A model generated the notes under the pieces. That model was not told the origin of the DNA and ran no database searches. It saw only the letters and a list, made by a program, of their open reading frames with translations. DNA of 34,145 nucleotides from Candidatus Obscuribacterales bacterium (GTDB taxonomy: Bacteria > Cyanobacteriota > Vampirovibrionia > Obscuribacterales > Obscuribacteraceae): NCBI GenBank assembly GCA_020050835.1, contig JAGVKB010000124.1, forward strand, positions 1-34,145. Reading direction: 5' to 3'. Made by a program: the position numbers and the translations under genes. Position 1 is the stretch's first letter; the number at the start of each line of letters is the position of its first letter. Positions 3,996 to 11,271 of the stretch are shown here, one piece after another.

Positions 3996-4445
3996 ATGAA
4001 ACTTCAGATTTTCGATCCACCGATGTGCTGCTCGACAGGCATTTGTGGACCAGGCGTAGATCCGGCTCTTGTAGCGTTCACAGCTGATCTCGATTGGTTA
4101 AAACGGCAGGGCGTTGAGATAGAACGATATAATCTTTCCCAGCAGACGCAAGCTTTCATAAGCAACACAACTGTTAGCGATGCGCTCAAAAAAGGCGGCA
4201 ACGATTGTCTTCCCATCGTACTTCTCGACGGGAAAATCATTCTGCAAGGTGCTTATCCGACACGGGAAAAGCTTGCGGAAGTAACGGGAATTAAGGTTAC
4301 TGAGACTGCGCCCAAGAGTTCGCTCAAGTTTACGGTTGAACAGCCAGCCTCTGTCGGCTCTGGTTGCTGCGCTCCGGCTGCGAAAGACGAAGCATGTTGT
4401 GAGGAATCCGATGAGAAGTCAGACAAGAAATCCACTTGTTGTTAA
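3996..4445 (+). CDS. arsD: ArsD arsenic metallochaperone
   Basis: This 149-aa protein has a thioredoxin-like fold family signature. The essential triad is in DPPMCCSTGICGPGVDP (C11, C12, C17), equivalent to C12/C13/C18 of the plasmid R773 protein. ArsD passes As(III) from cellular thiols to ArsA. The C-terminal tail is unusually cysteine-rich: C124-C125 (CCAP), C134-C135 and a terminal CC at 148-149, with Lys/Asp/Glu-rich spacers. The strong AGGGAGG site sets the start. The next gene is its partner ArsA. Confidence 0.93.
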   Translation: MKLQIFDPPMCCSTGICGPGVDPALVAFTADLDWLKRQGVEIERYNLSQQTQAFISNTTVSDALKKGGNDCLPIVLLDGKIILQGAYPTREKLAEVTGIKVTETAPKSSLKFTVEQPASVGSGCCAPAAKDEACCEESDEKSDKKSTCC

Positions 4446-4522: not shown

Positions 4523-6298
4523 ATGAATCTCGTTGATCAAGCTACAAAGTACATGTTTTTTACCGGCAAGGGCGGTGTCGGGAAAACCTCGGTATCATGC
4601 GCGATAGCGATAGCACTTGCTGACACTGGCAAACGAGTACTGCTAGTCAGCACCGATCCTGCCTCAAATCTGGATGAAGTGCTTCATGTCGCACTAAGTT
4701 CTACTCCCACGTCGGTGCCAGGTGTTGTCGGTCTCGACGCTCTTAATATAGATCCTGAAGCCGCTGCACGGGAGTACCGGGAGAGACTGATTACGCCATA
4801 TCGCGGTCTCTTGCCTGAGGCAAGTTTGAAGAGCATGGAAGAACAACTATCTGGCTCGTGCACTACAGAAATTGCGGCTTTCGATGAATTTGCTCGTCTG
4901 CTCGGCGACGCCGATAAGACTGCCAATTATGACCACGTCATTTTCGATACTGCCCCGACCGGCCACACGATGCGCCTTCTGTCTTTGCCAAAGTCATGGA
5001 CTACATTTATCGAAGGCAATACGACGGGCACTTCTTGCCTCGGTCCACTTGCCGGTCTCCAGCAGCAGCAGGACACCTACGCTTCATCCGTTCGAACGCT
5101 GATGGATGGTGCCCGAACAACTCTTGTGCTCGTCTCTCGTCCAGAGCAAACAGCACTAAGAGAAGCCGCAAATACGAGCGCGGAGTTACGGGAGATCGGC
5201 GTTGCCAATCAATGCCTCGTGTTGAACGGAGTGTTGAATGGTGCTACTACCGGCGATGCCATCGGATCTGCCTTTGCAACTCGAGGACAGTCCGCTGTGC
5301 AATCCATGCCGAAAGAATTGACAAAGCTTCCGACCCAGGAAATACTTCTCAGTGCACGAGCGCTAATTGGTGTTGAAGCATTGCGCAACATGTTCAAGTC
5401 AGAGCTTTCAGTGACTGCTCACGATCAACACTCAACAACTGATGAACTTCCACCGCCTCTTTTGAATATTGTTGACGAGTTGGAGAAGTCCGGTAAAGGC
5501 GTGATTATGACCATGGGCAAAGGTGGCGTCGGCAAGACCAGCATAGCTGCAGCAATAGCCGTAGAACTCGCTCGTCGCGGTCATCCAGTTCATTTGAGTA
5601 CCACAGATCCAGCCGCGCACATCTCCTGGGTTGTTGATAATCCGCTTCCCCTCCTGACGATTAGTCGCATCGATCCTTCCGAAGAGACCAAGGCATATCA
5701 AGACGAAGTTATGCAAACTGCAGGCAGCAACCTTGATGAAGAGGGGCGCGCACTGCTTGACGAAGATCTCCGTTCCCCTTGCACAGAGGAAGTCGCAGTC
5801 TTTAGAAGTTTTGCAAATGTGATGGCAAAAGGACAAGCCGGTTTTGTGGTACTGGATACGGCACCGACCGGACACACAATCCTCTTGCTGGATGCTGCTC
5901 AGGCATACCACAAAGAGGTCCTGCGCCAATCCAGCAATATGCCTGATGCGGTCATCAACTTATTGCCGCGACTGAGAGACCCCGAATTTACTCGCATACT
6001 GATTGTAACTTTGCCCGAAGCCACTCCAGTTCATGAGGCGAAGCGCCTCCAGGAGGACCTCGCCAGAGCAGATATTCACCCATTTGCTTGGATTATCAAT
6101 CAATCGCTCTCTCCGGTACAGACAAGAAATGCGGTTTTGGTCGCACGCCAGCAAAACGAAAAACTATATATGGACGAAGTGAAGCAACTTGCCAATCGCG
6201 TTGCCATCGTTCCGTGGTTACTTGAAGCACCAACACATTCGTCCGGCTTGGACAAATTGCTTGGAGGCAAAACTCAATTGAAAAGCATGGTGCGATAG
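4523..6298 (+). CDS. arsA: ArsA arsenite-activated ATPase (two-domain)
   Basis: This 591-aa ATPase has two homologous halves. P-loops GKGGVGKT lie at residues 15-22 and 332-339, and each half carries a DTAPTGHT signal-transduction motif (about 142-149 and 443-450). The metalloid site cysteines are present: C113 (SGSCTTE), C172 (GTSCLGPL) and C420 (RSPCTEE), matching C113/C172/C422 of the E. coli enzyme. The complete double form argues for a true As(III) pump ATPase rather than a Get3-like protein. It couples ATP to As(III) export, here with Acr3 instead of ArsB. AAAGGAG precedes the ATG. Confidence 0.95.
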   Translation: MNLVDQATKYMFFTGKGGVGKTSVSCAIAIALADTGKRVLLVSTDPASNLDEVLHVALSSTPTSVPGVVGLDALNIDPEAAAREYRERLITPYRGLLPEASLKSMEEQLSGSCTTEIAAFDEFARLLGDADKTANYDHVIFDTAPTGHTMRLLSLPKSWTTFIEGNTTGTSCLGPLAGLQQQQDTYASSVRTLMDGARTTLVLVSRPEQTALREAANTSAELREIGVANQCLVLNGVLNGATTGDAIGSAFATRGQSAVQSMPKELTKLPTQEILLSARALIGVEALRNMFKSELSVTAHDQHSTTDELPPPLLNIVDELEKSGKGVIMTMGKGGVGKTSIAAAIAVELARRGHPVHLSTTDPAAHISWVVDNPLPLLTISRIDPSEETKAYQDEVMQTAGSNLDEEGRALLDEDLRSPCTEEVAVFRSFANVMAKGQAGFVVLDTAPTGHTILLLDAAQAYHKEVLRQSSNMPDAVINLLPRLRDPEFTRILIVTLPEATPVHEAKRLQEDLARADIHPFAWIINQSLSPVQTRNAVLVARQQNEKLYMDEVKQLANRVAIVPWLLEAPTHSSGLDKLLGGKTQLKSMVR

Positions 6299-6330: not shown

Positions 6331-6352
6331 AAATCATCCACTTGGATGATTT
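6331..6352 (+). promoter_or_regulatory. Perfect 9-bp dyad downstream of arsA
   Basis: AAATCATCC (6331-6339) and GGATGATTT (6344-6352) pair perfectly around ACTT. No T-run follows the right arm. It sits between arsA and the HdrA-like gene, right after a GGAGG (6325-6329). It may be an mRNA processing or attenuation hairpin or an operator. Confidence 0.45.
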
Positions 6353-6446
6353 ATCAATCAGCCCGCGTGCTCAGGTTTTTCGCCGATGGAGCTGCAATGA
6401 TACAAAGGTCAAGAAACTTGGCGCAGATCTGGTGAGGTCTTGGAAC

Positions 6447-6884
6447 ATGCCTAAGAAAATCAAGCTACTTTTGTGCAATTGCAAAGGGCTCTGCCCTTCC
6501 TTCAAGGACGTGAACATGAACACGTTGCCTTTTGAATGTGAATCAGATCTGTCAATTGATTATGTCGCCATGAATCCCCAGCTTTGCGGAGCGGGTGGAA
6601 ACAAGGTATTACGCGATGCCATGAAAACAGCAGATCCCGATACCTACATCGTCTCTGGCGCATGTGCCCCAGACGCGCAAAAGAAGCTGTTTAAAAGAGT
6701 CTTGCGGGAGTCTGGCTTCGATCCTAAGAAGTTCATCGCAGTCGACATCAGGGAAACAGACAATGCTGGCGTTCTGAAGCGGCTGTCGGAAACAATCGAT
6801 TTCGTAGAAGAGAAGGGCGTTTGCCCATGTCAGTTTGCAGCTGGTGAATGCCCGGAAGAAATAGCTCCGATAGAACACGCCTAA
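6447..6884 (+). CDS. Nine-cysteine HdrA-like Fe-S protein in the ars operon
   Basis: The 145-aa protein opens with a hydrophobic strand and a CNCKGLC motif (C10, C12, C16). It also has C31, C47 in NPQLCGAGG, C73 in SGACAPDAQKKLFKRVL, and a C-terminal CPCQFAAGEC (C126, C128, C135). The order resembles the N-terminal cluster-binding segment of HdrA-type proteins (CxCG..., MCSDPG, ACSPRLHEPTFRR). It lacks the HdrA flavin domain, so this is a stand-alone module. Function is unknown; an Fe-S electron carrier or thiol-metalloid binder serving the ars enzymes is possible. Start: ATG 6447 has GGTGAGG 10 nt upstream. A TTG at 6342 would add 35 poorly conserved-looking residues. Confidence 0.65.
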   Translation: MPKKIKLLLCNCKGLCPSFKDVNMNTLPFECESDLSIDYVAMNPQLCGAGGNKVLRDAMKTADPDTYIVSGACAPDAQKKLFKRVLRESGFDPKKFIAVDIRETDNAGVLKRLSETIDFVEEKGVCPCQFAAGECPEEIAPIEHA

Positions 6885-6895
6885 TTGAAATCGAC

Positions 6896-6920
6896 TAGCG
6901 AATGCCGTTTGCGCTATTTT
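6896..6920 (+). terminator. Weak terminator hairpin between convergent operons
   Basis: TAGCG (6896-6900) pairs with CGCTA (6912-6916) around an 11-nt loop and is followed by TTTT. It lies just after the last ars-cluster gene and overlaps the end of the opposing DsbD-alpha gene. The stem is short, so termination strength is doubtful. Confidence 0.35.
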
Positions 6921-7444
6921 GTCTCGACTTTCAAATCGAGAGAAATTTTGCTGTTTCCAGGAACGCAGCTATGCTTGCAGGCAAGCCATTTTGCTGCCGC
7001 TTTGATGCTCACCGACTCCCCGGATTTCAAACCTTTAGAAGGTGTGACCATCGTTGAAAGGCGCACCTTTTTTGAATAGCCATATGTAACGATGCCAGCT
7101 TCCTTGTAAGTTTCCGCCGGCGGCCAGCTTAGCGCCTGTGCCGTGAAGCCTTTAGGCAACATCAAATCTACTTGCGTCGGCATCCCGCTTTGTCCAGGGT
7201 CTTTGTAATAGATGTGCCAGCCGGGCTCCATATCGTAGGAGACAAAAAGCTTGAAGGGTTTACCAGGCACGATCAGCTGTGTCTCACTGCTGAGGGAAGC
7301 TTTGATGGGTGACACCAGCAACTTATTACTCTGATTCTGAGCGAGACACGATTCTGTTGAGAACCCAATCATTGCACCCCAGAAAGTCAGTCCGGCGAGA
7401 ATTACGACACGGACCGTGTTTTTCAAATACTTTGCTTTTTGCAT
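6914..7444 (-). CDS. Secreted stand-alone DsbD-alpha-like domain protein
   Basis: This 176-aa protein has an N-terminal hydrophobic signal segment (about residues 10-35, ending near SCLAQ). It is followed by one DsbD N-terminal/DsbC-corrector type domain: PGWHIYYKDPGQSGMPTQVD, then LSWPPAE, then WLACKHSCVPG with a C156/C160 pair. In DsbD this periplasmic domain receives electrons from the membrane domain and passes them to oxidised partners. No membrane DsbD part is encoded nearby, so it must work with another reductant or bind metal ions. The ATG has GAGG 8 nt upstream. It is the last gene of the minus-strand thiol cluster. Confidence 0.75.
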   Translation of the reverse strand: MQKAKYLKNTVRVVILAGLTFWGAMIGFSTESCLAQNQSNKLLVSPIKASLSSETQLIVPGKPFKLFVSYDMEPGWHIYYKDPGQSGMPTQVDLMLPKGFTAQALSWPPAETYKEAGIVTYGYSKKVRLSTMVTPSKGLKSGESVSIKAAAKWLACKHSCVPGNSKISLDLKVETK

Positions 7445-7509: not shown

Positions 7510-8592
7510 TCAGTTTGTCTTGCTGGACAGTCGCCGTAATGTCTTCAATCTGCGTATTTCCTTGGGCGAAAGTGCCTGATCATTTACCACTTCGGTGATA
7601 AATGCCGGTCGTGATTGATCGGCGGACTCAGTCTTCATCCAGTCGATAAGTTTCTCAACGAGCGGTGGCGAGAATTTTCCCTCTTCAAGAACAAGATGCT
7701 CACCCTTCCCATCAATGAGAAACGTCTTGTTGTCAGAAGGGATGTCTCTGACGAGTTTGGCAACGGCTTTAGGTGATACCAGATGGTCATCGAGTCCTTG
7801 AACCACCAAGACTGGCTTTGCCAGTTGTTTGGCGTAGGACTCTGTCTTCGAGATGAAGCGCAAGAGAGAAGTTGCTTCTTTAAAAGATAGTTTCAACTTA
7901 TGCGATGGATCTGTCAGCCAGTGCTCTGTTAGCTCAGGGTCAGTCGTTGCTTGATGCATCATAGCTCGCCCAGCAGGACCGGGATGACTTCCGGGAAACA
8001 AGAACAATTCAAAGACGCCTTTTATAGCAGTTTGCCGCATCTTGAGTAACTTCCATGCAGGAGCAGAGCAGACGACACCATCGACGAGCGCTGGATTCTC
8101 AGCGGCAATTCTTATGGCTAGTGCGCCACCCATTGATTCACCAATGAGGAAGACCTTGTAGTCAGGCTGTTCTTTACGAATGTTGGTAAGCAGTTTGCTC
8201 ACGTCGCCGACCGTCTCTACGCAATTCAACTTCGCGCGATCGGGTTTGTCTCTGTCTGGACCAAAGCCGCGCACGTTCACACCGTATCCATCGATGCCTG
8301 CGGCAGAAAATTCCTTAGCTAATGGTTTGTAGGCCCTCGCGCACAGCCCCAGTCCGTGGATGCACACGACAATTATTTTGGCCGGTGCCTGACTCTTCCA
8401 CTCCAGCATGTGCGTTTCGCCGACAATAACGCATGAGGGATCTTCCGTACAACGCGCACCAACAGGTGATGAGATTGGAGCACCATTCGTCGGGCACTCT
8501 TCGGACCACGCAGCGCTGCTGAAGTTCAATGCAATCAGTAAGCACAACAGTGTCAAACAGATTGATCTAATCGCTTTTGCCTGGTTCGCCAT
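7510..8592 (-). CDS. Secreted alpha/beta hydrolase, monoacylglycerol-lipase-like
   Basis: This 360-aa protein has a Sec signal peptide (hydrophobic 10-28, cleavage near SSAAWS). The serine hydrolase features are an oxyanion HG motif (CIHGLG, 79-82), nucleophile elbow GESMGG (S153), acid in QGLDDHLVSP (D268 or D269) and H299 in KGEHLVLEE. The overall pattern is that of monoglyceride lipase/lysophospholipase-like hydrolases. A charged C-terminal tail of about 35 residues (KEIRRLKTLRRL) is extra. The start ATG overlaps by 26 nt the end of the UGA-containing small gene upstream in another frame, so its translation may be coupled to it. The substrate cannot be read from the sequence. Confidence 0.82.
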   Translation of the reverse strand: MANQAKAIRSICLTLLCLLIALNFSSAAWSEECPTNGAPISSPVGARCTEDPSCVIVGETHMLEWKSQAPAKIIVVCIHGLGLCARAYKPLAKEFSAAGIDGYGVNVRGFGPDRDKPDRAKLNCVETVGDVSKLLTNIRKEQPDYKVFLIGESMGGALAIRIAAENPALVDGVVCSAPAWKLLKMRQTAIKGVFELFLFPGSHPGPAGRAMMHQATTDPELTEHWLTDPSHKLKLSFKEATSLLRFISKTESYAKQLAKPVLVVQGLDDHLVSPKAVAKLVRDIPSDNKTFLIDGKGEHLVLEEGKFSPPLVEKLIDWMKTESADQSRPAFITEVVNDQALSPKEIRRLKTLRRLSSKTN

Positions 8593-8755
8593 GCTTAATA
8601 GGTTCTTGCTTCTCTTGCTGAATAGTTGTTGTCTTCTGCTGCTCGACCGAGCAGCTCCGCGACATTCAAGTAGGTATGCCGAGTTTCGGTAGTATCCACA
8701 GCTGCATCGCGAAGTAGAACACTATAAATCCAACGAACCAAATCGTACTGTCCAT
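8567..8755 (-). CDS. Candidate small membrane selenoprotein (in-frame UGA)
   Basis: ATG at 8755 has a strong AAAAGGAGGG nine bases upstream. It encodes one transmembrane helix (STIWFVGFIVFYFAMQLW) then ILPKLGIPT. UGA at 8668-8666 is codon 30. The same frame continues 32 more codons as MSRSCSVEQQ and a polar, charged tail to UAG. If UGA is selenocysteine, the product has 62 residues with a U30-MSRS-C35 redox motif just after the membrane. A perfect hairpin with a GG-starting loop follows the UGA at the spacing of bacterial SECIS elements. Neighbours handle thiols and sulfur. If the UGA is a plain stop, a 29-aa membrane peptide results. I do not recognise the family; no selenium genes are in the window. 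Confidence 0.55.
8638..8655 (-). promoter_or_regulatory. Bacterial SECIS-like hairpin
   Basis: On the minus strand GCTGCTC (8655-8649) pairs perfectly with GAGCAGC (8644-8638), leaving loop GGTC. Seventeen nucleotides separate the UGA (8668-8666) from the two loop guanines. Known bacterial SECIS elements are short stem-loops lying directly after the UGA at about this distance with a G in the first loop positions; E. coli fdhF is very close to this geometry as I recall it. The hairpin is coding, as expected for bacterial elements. Confidence 0.5.
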
Positions 8756-8829
8756 GGGGCTTTGCCCTCCTTTTCCCTTTGATACTATTATAGAGTCGTT
8801 CATTCCAACACTCGCTTTTTGCCAACCTT

Positions 8830-10587
8830 CTATTTAGCTAGCACCGCTGGTGGTGCGCTCTGATGATCCAGTTCTTCCTTCTTGCCAAGCTGCATCGAGT
8901 TCCATGTTAGGTATCCACCAGACAAGTTCTTGACACTGAATCCGTTCTGCTTGAGGAATCGGGATGCGTTGTAGGAACGCTGACCACTTTGACAATATGT
9001 GACTATTTCCTTTCCAACTGGTACCTCTGACAGTCGTTTTCTCAGCTCTGGAAGCGGAATATGAAGACTGCCATCAATGAAGCCCTTAGCACGCTCGCCG
9101 CGAGAGCGAACATCGATTATTACGGCTCCGCCTTTAGCCAAAGCAAGGACCTGATGCCATTGCACTTGCTCGGTCAAACCATCTAGTACGTTCGTGCCGG
9201 CCATTCCCGCCAAATTGATTGGATCTTTTGCTGAGCCAAAAGGCGGTGCATATGCTAGTTCCAGTTCGGACAGATCGCGTATGGTCATGCGTGCCTTGAT
9301 TGCAGTCGCGAGTACGTCTATTCGCTTATCGACGCCTTCTTTACCGATTACCTGTGCGCCCAGCAACGTCCCTGTTTCCTTATGGAAGAGCACCTTCATG
9401 TCAAGACGCTCTGCGCCTGGATAATAGCTTGCGTGATGGCTAGGATGAACGAAGATCGCTTCGTAAGGAATGGAGCTTGATTTCAATTGCACTTCGTTGA
9501 GACCTACCGATACCACAGTCAGATCGAACACCCGAAGGATGGCTGTGCCTATGGTGCCGTCGTAGCTTTGTTTTGCGCCGAAGATGTTGTTCGCCGCAAT
9601 GCGTCCCTGTCGATTGGCCGGACCGCCCAATGCAATGAGTGTCCACTCTCCGTTTACTGGATTACGCACCTCAATTGCATCGCCTACAGCCCATATGTTA
9701 GGTGAACTGGTTTGCAGATGTTCATCTACCCGAATACCGCCCCGCTCTCCGATGGTTAGTCCGGTTGTGCGCGCTAACGTTACTTCTGGTCTGATTCCTA
9801 GTCCCAGGATTACAAGATCCGCTGGCATTGGCTCATGTTCACGGGCTAGAACCCAGCAGGATTTTGGAGCATCTTCGGCAGCTCCCGCAATTTCGCCCGG
9901 TGCACGGAAGCCTTCAATCGAACTACCAAGCACGAGCTTAATGTCATGCTTGCTCAATTCCTTATGCACAAGTTCTGCCATTTCAATATCAAGCGGTGCC
10001 AGCACCTGATCTTTGCCGTCAATGAGTGTGACATCAAGTCCTCTGTGAACTAGCTGTTCCGCCATCTCCAGACCAATGAAGCCACCACCTGCCACTACTG
10101 CTGTGCGCGGCCTCTGAATTTCGAACCACGATTGAATTGATTCGACATCTTCAATACTGCGCAGTGTAAACAGGCCTGGCAGGTCGATGCCAGGTACTCT
10201 TGGTCTGATGGGAGCTGCTCCCACAGACAGAATCAGATCGTCATAACTCTCCTGATAGATCCTTTCAGTGGTTGTCTCTCTGACCGATACCATCTTCGCT
10301 TTCGCGTCGATCTCAATGACTTCATGATGAACGCGAACATCGAGATTCAGCTTGTTCTTCAAGGCGTCAGGAGTTACCACTATCAATTGTTCTTGCGATT
10401 GAATCTCTCCGCCTAGAAAATATGGTAATCCGCAATTGGCATAGGAGACGTATCCGCTTCGTTCAAGGACGATAATTTCTGAATCCTCAGAGAGGCGTCT
10501 AGCTCTGGCAGCCGCACTCATTCCACCTGCGACACCACCGACGATGACAATTTTCCTTGCTGGAACGTCGGAACCATTCTCTTTCAT
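8830..10587 (-). CDS. CoA-disulfide reductase fused to rhodanese
   Basis: This 585-aa flavoprotein has an N-terminal FAD Rossmann motif (IVIVGGVAGGMSAAARARR, 13-31). The active-site Cys is C52 in YVSYANCGLPYFLGG, typical of CoA-disulfide, NADH-oxidase and polysulfide reductases. A second nucleotide-binding motif is AVVAGGGFIGLEMAEQL. The dimerisation domain ends near 470. Residues about 480-570 form a rhodanese domain with catalytic C532 in TYCQSGQRS. This is the CoADR-Rhd architecture, which reduces CoA-disulfide or CoA-persulfide and polysulfide with NAD(P)H. The ATG follows GAGAGGAG. It lies between the rhodanese gene and the small UGA gene. Confidence 0.9.
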   Translation of the reverse strand: MKENGSDVPARKIVIVGGVAGGMSAAARARRLSEDSEIIVLERSGYVSYANCGLPYFLGGEIQSQEQLIVVTPDALKNKLNLDVRVHHEVIEIDAKAKMVSVRETTTERIYQESYDDLILSVGAAPIRPRVPGIDLPGLFTLRSIEDVESIQSWFEIQRPRTAVVAGGGFIGLEMAEQLVHRGLDVTLIDGKDQVLAPLDIEMAELVHKELSKHDIKLVLGSSIEGFRAPGEIAGAAEDAPKSCWVLAREHEPMPADLVILGLGIRPEVTLARTTGLTIGERGGIRVDEHLQTSSPNIWAVGDAIEVRNPVNGEWTLIALGGPANRQGRIAANNIFGAKQSYDGTIGTAILRVFDLTVVSVGLNEVQLKSSSIPYEAIFVHPSHHASYYPGAERLDMKVLFHKETGTLLGAQVIGKEGVDKRIDVLATAIKARMTIRDLSELELAYAPPFGSAKDPINLAGMAGTNVLDGLTEQVQWHQVLALAKGGAVIIDVRSRGERAKGFIDGSLHIPLPELRKRLSEVPVGKEIVTYCQSGQRSYNASRFLKQNGFSVKNLSGGYLTWNSMQLGKKEELDHQSAPPAVLAK

Positions 10588-10653: not shown

Positions 10654-11271
10654 CTATTTGCAGCAACTCCCTTTCGATTTTGCATTGCCGGTGCTTTCGG
10701 CTGTGTTCGTGACTGGTAGTTGATTCCAGGGTGCTTTCATTAACAGAAGACCCAGAGCGCAAGCTCCAGACAGACCTGCAAAGGTTAGCCCCGCTCCGAA
10801 AAATCCAGGAATGACGAGAAACCATGGACTAATGAAGACGCCGAGGAGAACGCCCGTCAAAACGCCAATGCCAACAATGAGCTGAATCTGGCGTTCTATT
10901 GGAAGCATCTTCTTGCCTTCCTTGACTGGCAGCCCGGCTTTGCGCCACGCAACTAGCCCTCCCTCCAGGACCTTGGGCTGAAAACCTTTGCCTAAAAGGG
11001 CATAGGCGCCTCGCTCTGCTCTTTTGCCAGATCTACATATGACGACGAGCTGTCCTTGCCGGGGCACTTCTTCACAGCGCGCTTCAAGCTCGTTGAGAGG
11101 CACATTTACGGAATTAGCTATGTGTTCCGTCTCAAATTCGATTGGGCTGCGAACGTCGAGAAGCACGGACTCTCCAGCATTTGCTGCCAGGTCGACAGGT
11201 GCTATTTGCTGGCAAACACTGGAATTAGACAGTTCTGGCACAGACAAGCCCTCACTTGGAATTAAATTCAC
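10654..11271 (-). CDS. Rhodanese with DUF2892-type membrane tail
   Basis: The 205-aa protein joins a rhodanese sulfurtransferase domain (about 20-115; SPIEFETEHIANSVNVPL, catalytic C79 in VVICRSGKRAERG) to a two-helix membrane segment (about 128-178; LIVGIGVLTGVLLGVFISP) of the DUF2892 kind. The rhodanese part would face the cytoplasm and handle persulfide sulfur. The tail ends in GSCCK, a cysteine pair like those on ArsI and ArsD. The start is GTG 11271, lying against an operator-like dyad; the Shine-Dalgarno is weak. It is the first gene of the minus-strand thiol cluster, followed after 66 bp by the CoA-disulfide reductase. Confidence 0.85.
   Translation of the reverse strand: MNLIPSEGLSVPELSNSSVCQQIAPVDLAANAGESVLLDVRSPIEFETEHIANSVNVPLNELEARCEEVPRQGQLVVICRSGKRAERGAYALLGKGFQPKVLEGGLVAWRKAGLPVKEGKKMLPIERQIQLIVGIGVLTGVLLGVFISPWFLVIPGFFGAGLTFAGLSGACALGLLLMKAPWNQLPVTNTAESTGNAKSKGSCCK

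Follow-up and report, generated by a model that had tools for sequence, protein, structure and literature searches.

Does a short reading frame that carries an in-frame UGA encode a complete selenoprotein, or does its product end at that codon? The question is raised by a minus-strand gene at positions 8567..8755 of the window, by which we mean the whole stretch of 34,145 nucleotides of Candidatus Obscuribacterales DNA that was analysed. The gene has 62 codons including the UGA, stops at UAG and reads MDSTIWFVGFIVFYFAMQLWILPKLGIPT-UGA-MSRSCSVEQQKTTTIQQEKQEPIKHGEPGKSD-UAG. A sequence-only reading had proposed it as a membrane selenoprotein. When the sequence was re-read, the start, the Shine-Dalgarno-like GGAGGG (8765..8770, minus strand; 9 nt upstream of the ATG), the transmembrane segment, the UGA, the MSRSC stretch and the UAG were all found as described. 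AGGAG-type sites, which are similar to GGAGGG, also precede many of the homologues. In the encoded protein a single transmembrane helix (about residues 2-24) is followed by LPKLGIPT-U-MSRS-C and a polar tail. The helix at residues 2-24 is the sole high-confidence part of a structure model (mean pLDDT 63.9), in which the tail has low confidence. A weak Pfam hint to OATP (E=0.08) falls short of the cut-off and was discarded as a hydrophobic match due to chance.

We consider it very probable that this gene represents a new selenoprotein family of tiny proteins that span the membrane once, with UGA read as Sec. Insertion of Sec is inferred and there is no protein-level evidence for it. The computed support consists of the Sec machinery, the exchange of UGA and Cys codons among homologues, coding conservation past the UGA, a SECIS-like hairpin and the gene neighbourhood.

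Conservation across the UGA codon

The UGA is codon 30 (8666..8668, minus strand). Two paralogues in the host genome have UGA at the same codon, one on contig C101 (74% identical) and one on C19 (59%, without the N-terminus). When GTDB genomes were scanned, relatives came up in MAGs of Melainabacteria/Obscuribacterales, mostly with UGA, and in MAGs of Deltaproteobacteria, with Cys. Using a profile search, we detected the family in 34 of 53 Obscuribacterales genomes, 32 with UGA and two with Cys forms only. A phylum-wide search of 386 genomes returned only the host genome itself, and that sample apparently contained no other genome of the order. Complete reading of 50 members gave UGA at the site in 44 and a Cys codon in six, and in these members neither another residue nor another stop codon (UAA/UAG) occurs there. 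In a 35-row alignment the invariant positions are Q18, P23, G26, T29, U/C30 and C35. The proposal could have failed here if homologues had ended at the UGA without a conserved downstream segment. None stops at that position; UGA or Cys is kept, and the segment MSxxCSVEQ is conserved behind it. Since the frame beyond the UGA is conserved in the 44 UGA-form genes, the codon is not a chance stop.

A second profile search, built around a deltaproteobacterial member, gave matches in 31 of 379 genomes, and UGA stands at the site in most of these. Two subtypes were seen in this deltaproteobacterial phylum. Members of the first resemble PRLGVSTUMSxSC; those of the second resemble PRLGVPTUMVPxPRRSxR, in which the near Cys (C35) is absent and a distant C-terminal Cys is found instead. 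The UGA forms extend over the Cyanobacteriota/Melainabacteria group and a deltaproteobacterial phylum, and UGA is kept in relatives from about 50 genomes of these two bacterial groups, with a matching RNA signal in most.

The hairpin downstream of the UGA

The earlier description of a perfect 7-bp hairpin with loop GGTC, 10 nt and 17 nt from the UGA, was exact. The element, GCTGCTC-GGTC-GAGCAGC, lies at 8638..8655 on the minus strand; its stem begins 10 nt past the UGA and its loop 17 nt past it. The folded stretch that contains the hairpin has an energy of -16.4 kcal/mol, and no other GGTC-loop hairpin of at least 6 bp exists on either strand of the window. In the published model of bacterial SECIS elements (PMC13188914) the loop opens with G at a distance of 16-37 nt from the UGA, and the hairpin satisfies the criteria of that work with its 7-bp stem, loop GGUC and distance of 17 nt.

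Codon use was compared among 39 UGA members whose spacing is standard. No variation occurs in the loop codons, Ser being TCG in 38/38 and Val GTC in 38/38. Elsewhere codons are varied: five are used for Ser at +2, four for the invariant Ala at -14 and six for Leu at -11. In the 38 aligned hairpins all pairs of a 6-bp stem are formed in every sequence (100% of cells). Two pairs have changed on both sides, one from C-G to U-A in three sequences and the other from C-G to U-A or G-C in three. These six double compensatory cells all fall on third codon positions, at synonymous sites. The stem covariation score was reached by none of 500 shuffles, and slid pairings were only 20-54% paired. Judged from these aligned genes, conservation of the hairpin is not explained by selection on the protein alone, and the comparison indicates that it is kept by selection on RNA.

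Seven members of the second deltaproteobacterial subtype have the same type of loop at a distance of 16-19 nt from the UGA, in hairpins such as CGCGCC-GGTC-GGCGCG. In these members (L202, L205, L199, L201, L203, L204 and L196) the hairpin lies in the RRSxR codons. L187 has no convincing hairpin. In one further UGA member, L169 (G426:C70), SRQCATGS stands in place of the usual TGCTCGGTCGAGCA hairpin, so that its SECIS, if there is any, must differ.

Sec machinery and alternative readings of the UGA

A reading as Sec would be refuted by the absence of Sec machinery from the genome. A search for selA, selB, selC and selD in the host genome (7.0 Mb, 95.7% complete) found the full set: SelA (459 bits), SelB (342 bits against a cut-off of 242, covering profile positions 3-575 of 581), SelD (372 bits) and a tRNA-Sec with UCA anticodon (70 bits, contig C100). 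The hairpin, beginning 10 nt further on, would direct SelB and Sec-tRNA(UCA) to decode the UGA at codon 30.

Across the order, tRNA-Sec over the Rfam cut-off was present in 30 of the 32 genomes with a UGA form compared to 12 of the 21 others (Fisher p=0.004, shared ancestry ignored). The two UGA genomes without a detected tRNA-Sec are 75% and 83% complete, and 11 of the 19 Obscuribacterales genomes without the family still have tRNA-Sec. One genome with a Cys form (G447) has no detected tRNA-Sec, and the loop there has changed by drift to GGTT; in another (G407), which has tRNA-Sec, the Cys form retains GGTC. Of the 31 matching deltaproteobacterial genomes, 28 have tRNA-Sec over the cut-off, for which there is no background rate of the phylum to compare, and in one deltaproteobacterial UGA genome it was not detected.

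UGA is also an ordinary stop in the host genome, for example in the next gene downstream, an alpha/beta hydrolase. Genome-wide reassignment of UGA was rejected because that gene terminates at UGA. The same use of UGA in other host genes is what speaks for an ordinary stop at codon 30 as well, which would leave a 29-residue membrane peptide and make the hairpin an unrelated regulatory element. We regard this as very improbable: the residues past the UGA are conserved as protein, with C35 invariant and MSxxCSVEQ retained, and homologues have Cys in place of UGA with the same downstream segment, while UAA or UAG was never seen there in the fully read members. It is just as hard to maintain that the UGA is read as Cys by a second tRNA of the host that is shaped like tRNA-Sec (C17:124713-124808, equal to L012:4714-4809 minus; 55 bits, RF01852). 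This tRNA has a GCA anticodon, U73 and an encoded CCA, and is similar to selC* tRNA-Cys. The selC* tRNA-Cys has been described as a mimic of tRNA-Sec, with a tRNA-Sec-like shape, U73, a GCA (or UCA) anticodon and an 8/4 branch with a bulge, and Firmicutes, Thermodesulfobacteria, Nitrospirae and Proteobacteria are named as its hosts (PMC7609411). Shape, GCA and U73-CCA match, but the host tRNA folds with an 8-bp acceptor and a 5-bp T-stem rather than the bulged 8/4 form. Such a tRNA was found in only one of the 53 Obscuribacterales genomes (E<=1e-6), whereas the UGA gene occurs in 32. Moreover, GCA and UGA do not pair by normal rules, the host also has a genuine tRNA-Sec(UCA) besides a normal tRNA-Cys(GCA), and neither a second selB nor cysS adjoins the tRNA. 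The Sec machinery, the UGA and Cys homologues and the conserved downstream segment all support the proposed reading as Sec, without experimental proof.

Gene neighbourhood and possible function

The neighbours of the gene had been said to act, without exception, on thiols, persulfides or disulfides. This is overstated, although genes of this sort are present; the assignments below are from Pfam and the counts from the compared loci. Next upstream is a CoA-disulfide-reductase-like protein (Pyr_redox_2) fused to a rhodanese (8830..10587, minus strand; 10 loci, next upstream in nine), followed by a rhodanese with a YgaP-like transmembrane domain (10654..11271, minus strand; 17 loci). The latter is the commonest neighbour in Obscuribacterales, and the selenoprotein gene is often part of an operon with these rhodanese and CoA-disulfide-reductase-like genes. 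A DsbD_N domain protein is encoded at 6914..7444 (minus strand; three loci). ArsA ATPase (4523..6298, plus strand) and ArsD (3996..4445, plus strand) are convergent and were each found in nine loci. The statement does not fit the gene next downstream, the alpha/beta hydrolase (S33; 7510..8592, minus strand; 12 loci, downstream in 11), the ATG of which falls inside the last part of the selenoprotein frame. A gene for a 180-residue cysteine-containing protein without a Pfam match (6342-6884, plus strand) is located between the operon and ArsA. An ArsR regulator is near the gene in 12 Obscuribacterales loci, and the four deltaproteobacterial Cys forms sit before a gene for a CcdA-thioredoxin protein; both names come from reading the sequences rather than from a library match. 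Several paralogues lack a sulfur operon around them. Nor was one found near the distant UGA members, in GC-rich loci where ORF calling was too poor for neighbourhood statistics; their few annotated neighbours (DUF302, HGD-D) have no shared theme. At one locus of the second subtype, L217, a DUF302 gene follows.

Over the 50 members, the N-terminal side of the helix carries 9 K/R and 46 D/E and the C-terminal side 137 K/R and 47 D/E. From this positive-inside bias the topology is probably N-out/C-in, and the U-x4-C pair would then lie where the membrane meets the cytosol. On the basis of the gene neighbours, the helix model and the charge counts, we infer as the best-supported function that the protein could well relay disulfides or persulfides through its selenol and thiol, anchored in the membrane and facing the cytosol, a redox role that we put forward tentatively. 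The selenolate would attack a disulfide or persulfide and C35 would resolve the product as a selenenylsulfide, with re-reduction by a cytosolic disulfide reductase or thioredoxin; alternatively, electrons or sulfane sulfur may be handed to a membrane partner. In Obscuribacterales the candidate partners would be the rhodanese-YgaP protein and the CoA-disulfide-reductase-rhodanese fusion; in Deltaproteobacteria it would be the CcdA-thioredoxin protein. The strength of this inference is limited by the several paralogues and distant UGA members without sulfur context and by the subtype that lacks C35. More doubtful still is the wider suggestion that this is an old family in which a selenolate at the inner membrane face shuttles electrons, or sulfane sulfur in perselenide form, between membrane proteins and rhodanese/disulfide-reductase enzymes of the cytosol.

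As(III) can be held by a Sec and a Cys that lie close together, and with ArsA and ArsD nearby in nine loci the selenoprotein might instead bind or sense arsenite or another soft metal(loid), without any thiol or persulfide relay. We think this improbable, as ars genes occur in just these nine of the compared loci, whereas rhodanese neighbours are commoner (17), and the Cys forms are accompanied by CcdA-thioredoxin.

Comparison with known selenoproteins

According to a 2022 review, Cyanobacteria appear to lack Sec (PMC9312934). In contrast to that statement, use of Sec is widespread in Obscuribacterales, where tRNA-Sec was found over the cut-off in 42 of the 53 genomes. The family is easily missed because standard annotation would end its proteins at residue 29. 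It puts Sec in a membrane protein beside persulfide-handling enzymes, and what a membrane selenol does in sulfane-sulfur chemistry can now be tested directly.

Neither Pfam nor NCBIfam models match the family, and the 119 prokaryotic selenoprotein families and subfamilies of a 2026 inventory (PMC13188914) include no comparable membrane family with U-x4-C. Literature searches on selenoproteins in Melainabacteria and on selenocysteine in Obscuribacter gave nothing relevant, with most subscription journals outside the search. In the absence of a model match, a catalogue entry and a relevant paper, we take the family as new, though its kind is known. Thioredoxin-like folds predominate in the selenoprotein catalogue (PMC13188914), to which this adds a very small family without a thioredoxin fold.

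TsoB (NF045694), which is rhodanese/DsbD fusion-like and has the motif UxxxxU, resembles the present protein in having a redox pair spaced by five residues and a rhodanese/DsbD theme, but the present protein has 62 residues, neither a rhodanese nor a DsbD domain and no NCBIfam match. The putative mercuric transport selenoprotein (PF02411, C/SxxU) is likewise a small membrane selenoprotein; the present family differs from it in having one helix, another motif and no PF02411 match. With the SelB/bSECIS selenoproteins of bacteria it has in common the in-frame UGA, a hairpin directly downstream, the Sec machinery and homologues with Cys.
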